Assembly (NCBI GenBank): GCA_028692875.1
Contig: JAQUWL010000011.1
Span: 1 to 63,629 of the forward strand
Length of the DNA stretch: 63,629 nucleotides
From: Sulfurospirillaceae bacterium
Lineage (GTDB): Bacteria > Campylobacterota > Campylobacteria > Campylobacterales > Sulfurospirillaceae
Direction of reading: 5' to 3'
In this document: piece after piece, positions 30,398 through 36,412 of the stretch
How the letters are laid out: each line of letters opens with the position of its first letter
How positions within the stretch are numbered: the stretch's first letter is position 1
Notes under the pieces: generated by a model
What the model was told of the DNA's origin: nothing
Databases searched by the model: none
Seen by the model: the letters and a program-made list of their open reading frames with translations, nothing else
Made by a program: the position numbers and the translations under genes

Positions 30398-31201
30398 GTG
30401 AAAAAATACAATCTTATCGAGACTTTTTTAGTAAAATTTTTACAAGAAGAGGTTTTTAAAACTGGTCTTAAGCGTGCAGTTGTTGGAATCAGTGGTGGAA
30501 TAGACTCCGCTGTTGTTTCTGTGCTTGCTCAAAAGGCGTTTGGCGACTCTTTTTTAGGCGTTATGATGCCCTCTTCCTACTCTAGCCAAAATAGTCTGGA
30601 TGACGCTCTATCCTTATGTCAAAAATTTAATATAAAATATGAAAAAATATCAATAGCAGAGCTTGTAAGTAGCTACTTTATGGATAAAAAAGCGGACAAT
30701 CTTCGTATAGGAAATTTTAGTGCAAGAATGAGAATGTCCGTTTTGTACGATATTTCATCTCGTGAAAATGCCTTAGTTTTGGGCACTAGCAACAAAAGCG
30801 AATTATTGTTAGGTTACGGAACAATCTTTGGCGACCTTGCAAGTGCTATCAATCCAATAGGCGATATGTACAAAACAGAGATTTTTGAATTTGCAAGTCA
30901 TCTTGGCATTCCTCAATCCATAATAGACAAAGCACCTTCTGCGGACTTGTGGGAGGGGCAAAGTGATGAGAGCGATTTGGGCTTTAGCTATTCACAATTA
31001 GACAAGATATTGCATTTATATGTGGATAAAAGAATGAGCAAAGAGGAGCTTTTAGCAGATGGCTATGAAAAAAATATCATAGAATCAGTTATTAGCAGAA
31101 TATACAAAAACCAATTTAAAAGAAAGCCACCGATAGTCGCAAAACTTAGCGAAAGAACCATAGGGCATGACTTTTTATATCCTAGAGACATAAAGCTCTA
31201 A
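30398..31201 (+). CDS. nadE: NAD+ synthase, ammonia-type
   Basis: Final step of NAD+ synthesis: adenylates and amidates nicotinic acid adenine dinucleotide. 267 residues without a glutaminase domain, so it uses free ammonia. PP-loop SGGIDSA at ~33, LGTSNKSELLLGYGT, FGDLASAINPIGD and KAPSADLWEGQSDE blocks are intact. GTG start at 30398. A -10 box TATAAT lies at 30354-30359 behind a T-rich stretch. First gene of the run nadE-degT-lpxK-argB-thrC-kdsB. Confidence 0.95.
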   Translation: MKKYNLIETFLVKFLQEEVFKTGLKRAVVGISGGIDSAVVSVLAQKAFGDSFLGVMMPSSYSSQNSLDDALSLCQKFNIKYEKISIAELVSSYFMDKKADNLRIGNFSARMRMSVLYDISSRENALVLGTSNKSELLLGYGTIFGDLASAINPIGDMYKTEIFEFASHLGIPQSIIDKAPSADLWEGQSDESDLGFSYSQLDKILHLYVDKRMSKEELLADGYEKNIIESVISRIYKNQFKRKPPIVAKLSERTIGHDFLYPRDIKL

Positions 31202-31218: not shown

Positions 31219-32355
31219 ATGAAAGAGATTCCGTTTTACAAACCGTTTATAGACAACAGAGAAAAGACGCTCATCAATGAGGTTTTAGACTTAGAAAAAA
31301 CAACCAAAAAAGTCGATGTGTTAGAGAAAGATTTTACAAAATATATTGGTTGCGAGCATGCCATCTCTACATGTAACGGTACGGCGGCAATGCATCTTGC
31401 AATGTGTGCATTAGATCTTAAAAGAGGCGACAAGATCATCTGCTCGGTCAACTCATTTCCTAGCGTTGCAGAAGTGGTTCGCCATTTTGACGCAGAGCCT
31501 ATATTTGTAGATATTGACAAAGACGACTTCAATATCGATATAGACCAGCTAGAAAATGTCCTAAAAAACAACTCAACAAAAAAACTCAAAGGTGCTTTTA
31601 TCACACATGTAGCGGGACAACCTACAGACATGGACAAAATCTACGACCTCGCATCAAGCTATGATATAAAAATTATCGAAGATGCTTCTGGTGCTCTTGG
31701 AGGAACCTACAAAGGCTCCAAAATAGGCTCAACGGGTGCAGATATAACCACCTTTAGATTTAGTCCGCAAATGCGACATGCGATATCAAGCGGTGGAGTT
31801 TTGGCTACCGACAATGATGAGTTAGCTCAAAGAGCCAAACTACTTAGAAATCATGCCATCGTAAATGAAGGCTGGGATAAATACGGAAACCTAGGATATG
31901 TATATGACGTTATTGATATTGGCATGAAATACGATTTAAATGAACTTAATGCCGCATATGCAATAGGTCAGCTAGAAAAAAATGAAAAATTTATCAAAAG
32001 ACGCATAGAGATAGCTCAAATATACGACAAAGAACTTGCTGATTGTCCGCATGTATCAACACCGATTAAAAAAAGAGAGCATATCTATTCTCAATATATT
32101 ATAAAAATTGATAAAAACAGAGATGGATTTGCAAGAGAGCTTAAAGAAAAGGGGATTTGCACCTCTTTACACTTTATACCTTTGCACTTACTAACATATT
32201 ACAAGCAAAAATATTCACTAAGGGTCAATGATTTTCCAAAAGCACTTGGAAACTATCAACAAATTTTATCTTTGCCAATATATGCAAACCTAAGCGATAA
32301 AGAGGTCTACTATATCTGCGAAAATATCAAAGAGATAGCCAAACATCGTGTATAA
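31219..32355 (+). CDS. DegT/DnrJ/EryC1/StrS-family protein lacking the PLP lysine
   Basis: 378-residue member of the sugar aminotransferase fold type I family. The scaffold is intact: CNGTAAMHLAM (phosphate binding), FVDIDKDDFNID, IIEDASGALGGTYKG (Asp that pairs with the pyridine N). But the Schiff-base segment, usually F-x-F-x-x-x-K-N..GEGG, reads FRFSPQMRHAISSGG, with Met at the lysine position and no lysine in the segment (31756-31803). It may use PMP without a covalent aldimine, as reported for ColD-type dehydratases that carry His there, or have lost activity. Its place between nadE and lpxK, ahead of kdsB, suggests a role in surface sugars. Confidence 0.85.
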   Translation: MKEIPFYKPFIDNREKTLINEVLDLEKTTKKVDVLEKDFTKYIGCEHAISTCNGTAAMHLAMCALDLKRGDKIICSVNSFPSVAEVVRHFDAEPIFVDIDKDDFNIDIDQLENVLKNNSTKKLKGAFITHVAGQPTDMDKIYDLASSYDIKIIEDASGALGGTYKGSKIGSTGADITTFRFSPQMRHAISSGGVLATDNDELAQRAKLLRNHAIVNEGWDKYGNLGYVYDVIDIGMKYDLNELNAAYAIGQLEKNEKFIKRRIEIAQIYDKELADCPHVSTPIKKREHIYSQYIIKIDKNRDGFARELKEKGICTSLHFIPLHLLTYYKQKYSLRVNDFPKALGNYQQILSLPIYANLSDKEVYYICENIKEIAKHRV

Positions 32356-33280
32356 CAAACACAAATTCATAGCGTGGGTTGAAGAGTATCTTTTTAGACC
32401 ACGCTCTATTTTTCAAAAAATCCTATCTTTTTTAATGCTTCCTTTCTCTTATATTTACTGTGCGATTGTTATAGCAAAACGGCAAAAAGCAAAAGAGATT
32501 GACCTTAAAATTCCGATTATTAGCATTGGAAACTTAACCGTTGGAGGAAGTGGAAAAACACCATTTTGTATAGCTTTAGCCAAAGAGTATGAAAATGTTG
32601 CTATAGTCCTTAGGGGTTACAAAAGAGGCTCTCATGGCACTCTTGTTGTGTCAGATGGGACAACTATCAAATGTGATGTTGTAGCCTGCGGTGACGAAGC
32701 GATGCTTTACGCTAAGTCACTTCCAAAAAATGTTGTTATAGTTTGTGAAGACAGAATCGAAGGTATCACTGTAGCAAAAAAAATGGGTGTAAAAATTATT
32801 TTCCTAGATGATGGATTTTCCAAAAGTCACATTAAAAAATTTGATATATTGCTCAAGCCAAATCCAGAACCAACGAATAGTTTTTGCCTTCCTAGCGGAC
32901 CATACAGAGAGCCTAAGTTCTTATATGATGAGGCGGATTTGACATTAAGCGAAGGCGTTGATTTTCAAAGAGTTGTGACTCTAAAAAACCCAACTGAGCG
33001 TATGATACTAGTTACTGCCATCTCAAAGCCATATAGACTAGACCCCTATCTTCCAGACAATCTTATAGCAAAAATCGCCTTTTCTGATCACTACATGCAT
33101 GAAGTGGATGAGCTGGTAGATTTGATGAAAAAGCACAAAGCAACCTCCATCCTAACCACCCAAAAAGATGCCGTAAAGATGATATCTCCTAGATTAACAC
33201 TCTCTATTTTGGAGCTTGAAATCACCATATCTCAACATGTAAAAGAGAAGATAAACGCTTTTTTATCTCAATTTCGATAA
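32348..33280 (+). CDS. lpxK: Tetraacyldisaccharide 4'-kinase
   Basis: Phosphorylates the lipid A precursor at the 4' position on the inner face of the inner membrane. 310 residues. N-terminal membrane-associated helix (FLMLPFSYIYCAIVIA) and P-loop GNLTVGGSGKTPF at ~59. RGYKRG and LDDGFSKSHIKKFDIL match the family; LDDGFQH is the common form, here with Ser-Lys-Ser before the His. GTG start overlapping the degT stop by 8 bases. Confidence 0.93.
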   Translation: MYNKHKFIAWVEEYLFRPRSIFQKILSFLMLPFSYIYCAIVIAKRQKAKEIDLKIPIISIGNLTVGGSGKTPFCIALAKEYENVAIVLRGYKRGSHGTLVVSDGTTIKCDVVACGDEAMLYAKSLPKNVVIVCEDRIEGITVAKKMGVKIIFLDDGFSKSHIKKFDILLKPNPEPTNSFCLPSGPYREPKFLYDEADLTLSEGVDFQRVVTLKNPTERMILVTAISKPYRLDPYLPDNLIAKIAFSDHYMHEVDELVDLMKKHKATSILTTQKDAVKMISPRLTLSILELEITISQHVKEKINAFLSQFR

Positions 33281-35692: not shown

Positions 35693-36412
35693 GTGATTAT
35701 AATTCCTGCGAGAATGGCGTCAACACGATTTCCAAACAAAGTACTTGCCGACATAAATGGCTTGCCTATGTTTATCGCAACAGCAAAACAGGTTGAAAAA
35801 CTCGACAATGTAGCAATCGCTACGGATTCTAGCAAAGTGGTGGATATCGCAAAAGAGTACGGATTTGAGGCTATTTTAACCTCAAATGAACATCAAAGCG
35901 GAACAGATCGTATCAACGAAGCTGCTCAAAAACTTCTTCTTGATGAAAACGAGGTCATTGTCAATGTTCAAGCTGACGAGCCTTTTATAGAGCCATCAGT
36001 TGTGCAAAAAGTAATTAAAAGAGTCAAAAAAGCGCAAGAGTTAAAAGAAGATATTATGATGACCAGTTGCTACAAGCTTATAGACAAATCGTTTGCGACA
36101 GACCCAAATCATGTAAAAGTTATAGTGGATTATCAAAACTATGCAATCTATTTTTCACGCAGTAAAATTCCATACGACAGAGAAGAACATCTTGAATATT
36201 TTGGGCATTTAGGCATATACGGCTTTACAAAACGCTCTTTGCAAGAGTTTTGTGCTCTGCCATGCTCTCCATTGGAAAACATAGAAAAGCTTGAACAACT
36301 TAGGGCTATATATTTTGGTAAAAAAATAGCTATGATTATGGTAGAGAGCCGAAGTTTTGGTATCGATACGACAGAGGATTTAAAAAAGGCGCTTGAAATT
36401 TTTAAGCACTAA
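35693..36412 (+). CDS. kdsB: CMP-KDO synthetase
   Basis: Activates KDO for transfer to lipid A. 239 residues. Nucleotide-binding IIPARMASTRFPNKVLA at the N-terminus, AIATDS, SGTDRINEA, VNVQADEPFI and a late SRSKIPYDR block followed by HLGIYGF. GTG start at 35693. Last gene of the nadE run. Its stop overlaps the stop of a convergent small gene by 4 bases. Confidence 0.95.
   Translation: MIIIPARMASTRFPNKVLADINGLPMFIATAKQVEKLDNVAIATDSSKVVDIAKEYGFEAILTSNEHQSGTDRINEAAQKLLLDENEVIVNVQADEPFIEPSVVQKVIKRVKKAQELKEDIMMTSCYKLIDKSFATDPNHVKVIVDYQNYAIYFSRSKIPYDREEHLEYFGHLGIYGFTKRSLQEFCALPCSPLENIEKLEQLRAIYFGKKIAMIMVESRSFGIDTTEDLKKALEIFKH

Follow-up and report, generated by a model that had tools for sequence, protein, structure and literature searches.

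In sugar aminotransferases of the DegT/DnrJ/EryC1/StrS fold family (PF01041), the active sites are formed at the dimer interface, and the cofactor is contacted by an Asp (to N1), a His (to O3'), a Ser and a Thr (to the phosphate) and by water-mediated contacts of a Glu and a Gly (PMC5936713). Relatives lacking the Schiff-base lysine are already known. The PMP-dependent 3-dehydratases ColD, E1 (RfbH) and SpnQ have the DegT fold without this lysine, and enzymes of the ColD/E1 kind need a fixed catalytic His in its stead (PMC8987622). In eukaryotic serine palmitoyltransferase, the fold-type I paralogue SPT1/LCB1, which belongs to a different subfamily, has lost the lysine and is non-catalytic, its documented partner being the lysine-bearing paralogue SPT2 (PMC6148460). 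An order-wide lysine-free family tied to lpxK appears to be undescribed; a literature search, with subscription journals mostly outside its reach, found no paper coupling a DegT protein with LpxK in the Campylobacterales. This order includes Campylobacter, Helicobacter, Arcobacter and bacteria of the sulfur cycle.

The window, i.e., the whole stretch of 63,629 nucleotides that was analyzed, harbors a gene of this kind. Its predicted position between nadE and lpxK was confirmed, the identities of nadE, lpxK, argB, thrC and kdsB all lying above the curated NCBIfam cut-offs:

30398..31201, + strand: nadE, NAD+ synthase, upstream neighbor (NCBIfam cut-off)
31219..32355, + strand: DegT-fold pseudo-aminotransferase, 378 amino acids, ATG start (ORF call, PF01041 profile, AF2 model)
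32348..33280, + strand: lpxK, tetraacyldisaccharide 4'-kinase, the start of which overlaps the stop of the pseudo-aminotransferase gene by 8 bp (NCBIfam cut-off)
35693..36412, + strand: kdsB, downstream after lpxK, argB and thrC, given as context (NCBIfam cut-off)

The PF01041 profile matched the protein over its full length (307 bits, residues 11-370 of 378). The AF2 model (pLDDT 91.7, pTM 0.90, with a low-confidence stretch at residues 211-240) showed ArnB as its nearest structure (TM 0.87, 30% identity). By both profile and fold, the protein is a member of the DegT/DnrJ/EryC1/StrS fold family. The curated cut-offs of every named DegT member were well above its scores, the nearest being PseC (292.3 bits against a cut-off of 423.5) and ArnB (244.2 bits against 631). 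The protein shares with ArnB and PseC the fold, the full-length PF01041 match and remnants of the pocket (Asp, Thr, an aromatic residue and His-Tyr), but lacks the Schiff-base lysine, the O3'-contacting His/Gln, His182, Glu191 and the glycine of the TxGP type, and remains below the NCBIfam cut-offs.

The Schiff-base lysine site and the cofactor pocket

The residues of the former active site were located with an alignment of 155 rows, comprising 135 distinct orthologues and 20 lysine-type relatives:

31681..31683, + strand: Asp155, the sole strongly kept cofactor contact, present in 130 of 135 orthologues (155-row alignment)
31753..31797, + strand: old PLP-lysine loop FRFSPQMRHAISSGG, residues 179-193 (sequence and alignment)
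31771..31773, + strand: Met185 codon, in the place of the Schiff-base lysine (sequence and alignment)

The original prediction of a Met in the lysine place, within a loop as long as the family form, was borne out: FRFSPQMRHAISSGG and the corresponding ArnB loop FSFHAIKNITCAEGG are of equal length, and the ArnB lysine is matched by Met185. Although a two-residue gap appears within the loop in the printed HMMER alignment, register and length agree. Column 185 is Lys in all 20 lysine-type relatives (entropy zero) as against 10 of the 135 orthologues, among which more than 10 residue types were found (S30, L25, M24, A10, K10, R7, V5, T5 and others), with an entropy of 3.23 bits and a variability rank of 7 among 378 positions. 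Within the window's family, the lysine is replaced by M, S, A, V or T in all readable copies, among them those of the isolates Sulfurospirillum cavolei, S. diekertiae and S. arcachonense. The loss of the lysine is a trait of the whole group, neither a sequencing error nor a single odd copy; it is shared by related species and by most orthologues across the order, Met itself being present in 24 of 135 orthologues.

No lysine elsewhere in the site takes its place, as position +1 is Arg in the window protein and Lys in only 33 of 135 orthologues. Across the 135 orthologues, no conserved base was found in the 179-193 loop and no conserved His in or near the lysine place. The His two residues after the lysine site, considered as a replacement base, was rejected, not being conserved in the orthologues. 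Since ColD, E1 and SpnQ have a fixed catalytic His at a site that varies here and that no His takes over, the group is not ColD-like.

Eight of the ten orthologues with Lys185 belong to one genus, f19/g23 (L095, L096, L130-L132, L137, L138 and L142), the remaining members of which have R, N or G at this position. All ten are nested within the group and have neither His158 nor Glu191; on these grounds, the idea that the Lys-bearing members of f19/g23 are ancestral active enzymes was rejected.

The published cofactor contacts fall on D155, 158, 180, T55, 191 and 192 of the window protein. The claim of an otherwise intact PLP pocket was not confirmed and is right only in part, since the pocket is for the most part lost. 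Besides Asp155, Thr55 is retained in 115 of 135 orthologues, and the aromatic residue at 80 (F80), H318 and Y/F319 are mostly kept. Position 158, which is the O3'-contacting His/Gln in relatives, is E, D, N, A, Q or R in orthologues; position 182, His in most relatives, is N or S; and Glu191 is lost in favor of N, S or T. The phosphate-binding Ser at 180 is kept in about half (Ser in 67/135, Arg in 46/135, with R180 in the window's family). Glycine 28 of the N-terminal TxGP-type loop, present in 20/20 relatives, is lost in the orthologues. As a small set of eight, the cofactor-contact columns were more variable than the remaining columns conserved in the relatives (Mann-Whitney p=0.007). The group has neither the Schiff-base lysine nor the full set of cofactor contacts of a DegT sugar aminotransferase, and the DegT/DnrJ/EryC1/StrS aminotransferase label given by family profiles is almost certainly wrong for these lpxK-linked proteins. 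The retention of Asp155, Thr55 and His318 in most orthologues could mean that a ligand, even free PLP or PMP, is still bound; this and the ten Lys185 orthologues are points against the non-catalytic role proposed below.

Linkage to lpxK and distribution in the Campylobacterales

lpxK was the next gene in 130 of the 133 readable loci; among all 135 loci, it was absent from the fetched stretch in three (all f23) and cut off in two. nadE was directly upstream in only 87 loci and absent there in 45, while lpxK stayed. Hence, lpxK rather than nadE is the constant companion of the gene. An 8-bp overlap with lpxK was observed in 55 of 108 measurable gaps, and 80 of the 108 were overlapping in all; the overlap is kept across families. 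The suggestion that the neighbors serve lipid A and KDO synthesis was therefore upheld for lpxK, to which the lipid A link is specific, kdsB being located further downstream as context only. In many genomes without the gene (f11/g28, f14/g49, f16 and f18), nadE runs straight into lpxK, and in others (e.g., f8, f3, f13 and f20) different genes are present ahead of lpxK. The order nadE-lpxK-thrC of f11/g28 is that of C. jejuni.

The gene was found in 44/44 genomes of the window's family, with 71-81% identity save for two broken or partial copies. In the Campylobacterales, 213 of 299 genomes gave a match at E<=1e-80, and in a sample of the phylum 251 of 397 did so at E<=1e-75, all Campylobacterales among the matches listed. 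A tree of 85 proteins, in which the lysine-type relatives are a sample only, placed the orthologues on one side of a branch with an SH-aLRT of 100 and a long stem (0.76). The best explanation is that the group is an ancient paralogue of nucleotide-sugar aminotransferases of the ArnB/PseC type.

Strongly diverged copies were observed exactly between nadE and lpxK in f14/g41 (L167, L197 and L198), L167 being 36% identical to the window protein. Two genomes picked as lacking the gene (G100 and G112) also turned out to have it at this locus, in a highly divergent form. A scan of viral contigs gave a single match, a 57% identical orthologue on an IMG/VR contig (L220), which is more likely a fragment of a Campylobacterota chromosome than a virus.

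Selection and group-specific residues

Purifying selection on the gene is strong, the median dN/dS being 0.038 over 94 pairs. Mean identity to the window copy at the same loci was 76% for this protein, compared with 61% for LpxK, 67% for NadE, 72% for ThrC and 79% for ArgB. The 155-row alignment revealed about 24 residues that are near-invariant in orthologues and rare in relatives, i.e., K68, R69, K72, S76, R88, H89, F90, D91, E93, L123, L208, Y227, D230, V231, I294, N300, A305, L317, H323, K331, Y332, A342, L343 and Q347. The principal clusters are the following:

31420..31434, + strand: K68-R69-G-D-K72, group-specific and near-invariant, in the loop ahead of strand 72-76 (alignment and AF2 model)
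31480..31497, + strand: R88-H-F-D-A-E93, group-specific and near-invariant, in the loop ahead of strand 93-97 (alignment and AF2 model)
31579..31587, + strand: K121-K-L123, near-invariant, in the loop ahead of strand 123-129 (alignment and AF2 model)
32209..32214, + strand: K331-Y332, group-specific and invariant, in the small domain (alignment)

In the AF2 model, K68-K72, R88-E93 and K121-L123 are helix-to-strand loops, and the cofactor residues are at the opposite strand ends. Strands 72-76, 93-97 and 123-129 are neighbors in the sheet of the family, which has the strand order 3-2-4-5-8-9-1 (PMC5936713). From the secondary structure and this published order, we infer that the three loops form one patch, mostly basic, at the sheet edge that faces away from the former active site. 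Part of the predicted patch may be at the dimer interface.

Proposed role at the LpxK step and rival explanations

It is very likely that the group consists of pseudoenzymes performing no PLP or PMP catalysis. A pseudoenzyme that is strongly selected usually points to a step of regulation or assembly, and the genomic linkage suggests that the function is probably tied to lipid A and LpxK. Our best explanation is that a pseudo-aminotransferase may well have been kept in the Campylobacterales to assist or regulate the LpxK step without catalysis of its own. PLP chemistry would have been abandoned and the protein retained in a non-catalytic role, made together with LpxK and working with it. As a binding partner or regulator, it would act on the 4'-kinase reaction in lipid A synthesis or on the delivery of the lipid substrate of LpxK, with the conserved, mostly basic patch at the central sheet's edge as a putative contact surface, and the remnant groove may still bind or sense a small sugar-like ligand. 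A direct partnership with, or regulation of, LpxK is judged possible from gene order, with somewhat less assurance; operon neighbors need not interact, and against a role at LpxK, lineages without the gene have LpxK without the pseudo-aminotransferase. Still more tentative is the proposal that a sugar aminotransferase was recruited as a dedicated LpxK regulator or scaffold, which would control or organize lipid A synthesis in most Campylobacterales.

Among the rival explanations, a sequencing error or decaying pseudogene has practically no probability and was refuted; no supporting point was found, all readable family copies, including those of the isolates, are also without the lysine, and a dN/dS of about 0.04 is against decay. 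The original prediction had offered a novel type of PMP-dependent sugar enzyme or a regulatory protein; the former is not supported, and the latter proved the better half. A new kind of cofactor enzyme, such as a PMP-dependent dehydratase, could draw on the mostly kept Asp155, Thr55, aromatic 80, His318 and Tyr/Phe319, yet most contacts are degraded (His/Gln158, His182 and Glu191 are gone, and half of the orthologues are without Ser180), no conserved base is present at or near the freely varying site 185, and ColD and E1 carry a fixed His (PMC8987622), making such an enzyme highly improbable. New catalysis without PLP is an unlikely explanation of better standing. A new active site could have been formed from invariant residues (H59, K68, R69, R88, H89, D91 and others), with a nucleotide sugar or a precursor of lipid A as its substrate; the abundance of invariant polar residues (H, K, R, D and N), the conservation exceeding that of LpxK and the location in a lipid A operon agree with this. 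However, the strongest group-specific cluster is predicted to lie in loops that lead from helix to strand, at a distance from the pocket in which the fold performs its chemistry, and the relative-conserved residues 28, 182 and 191 are lost.

The protein could also be a prozyme, pairing in the same cell with a DegT aminotransferase that still has its lysine. Lysine-free SPT1, as the partner of SPT2, is a precedent for such a heterodimer (PMC6148460), and the location of sugar aminotransferase active sites at the dimer interface (PMC5936713) would suit it. At least one other DegT protein was found in every carrier genome tested. The group resembles SPT1 in the proposed non-catalytic state of a lysine-free paralogue, but, in contrast to SPT1, no constant paralogue partner was found for it, its constant companion being the gene of an unrelated kinase, lpxK. 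The GnnB-like L001 was not found (E<=1e-80) in many carriers (e.g., G016, G046, G049, G070 and G111) and was present in genomes without the gene (e.g., G071, G146 and G177); a prozyme for a GnnB-type aminotransferase is unlikely in view of this failed co-occurrence, and a prozyme in general is considered quite improbable. Slightly lower still is the chance of a function unrelated to lipid A, with the adjacency reflecting operon history (e.g., NAD synthesis or operon expression). nadE is the usual upstream neighbor (87 loci), and translational overlap alone could keep the gene and lpxK paired; against this, lpxK is retained in the 45 loci where nadE is not adjacent, and its overlap is conserved across families.

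The group, almost certainly misannotated, sits in a core lipid A operon of the Campylobacterales. If the tentative proposal of an LpxK regulator or scaffold is true, lipid A synthesis in most of the order would be controlled by the protein at the 4'-kinase step, and we know of no other bacteria with a control point of such kind at this step. As the genome itself suggests the partner, LpxK, and the natural absences provide ready comparisons, the idea is directly testable. In a comparison that included L190-L215, LpxK positions 125, 219 and 286 were L, M or S in most carrier genomes and often charged or small in f11, f16, f18 and f13, which lack the gene, but unchanged in f14 genomes lacking it; this co-variation with gene presence, contradicted by f14, is a suggestive lead.

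Regarding the paralogues of the same cell, the other DegT proteins in which the loop was read (L001, L002, L004, L006 and L007) all have the lysine. L002 is a true PseC (490.5 bits on the PseC profile) located beside a PseB-like dehydratase. DegT paralogue L004 (own genome C43:58302-59357) showed an in-frame TGA within the matched stretch. In the L001 region (L001:593-2586; own genome C27:8676-9716), hemH-like, UDP-GlcNAc 3-dehydrogenase-like oxidoreductase, WbpE/GnnB-like aminotransferase and alaS-like genes are arranged in a row, in the gene order of C. jejuni, and the region has the look of a GnnA/GnnB pair serving the synthesis of lipid A with 2,3-diaminoglucose.
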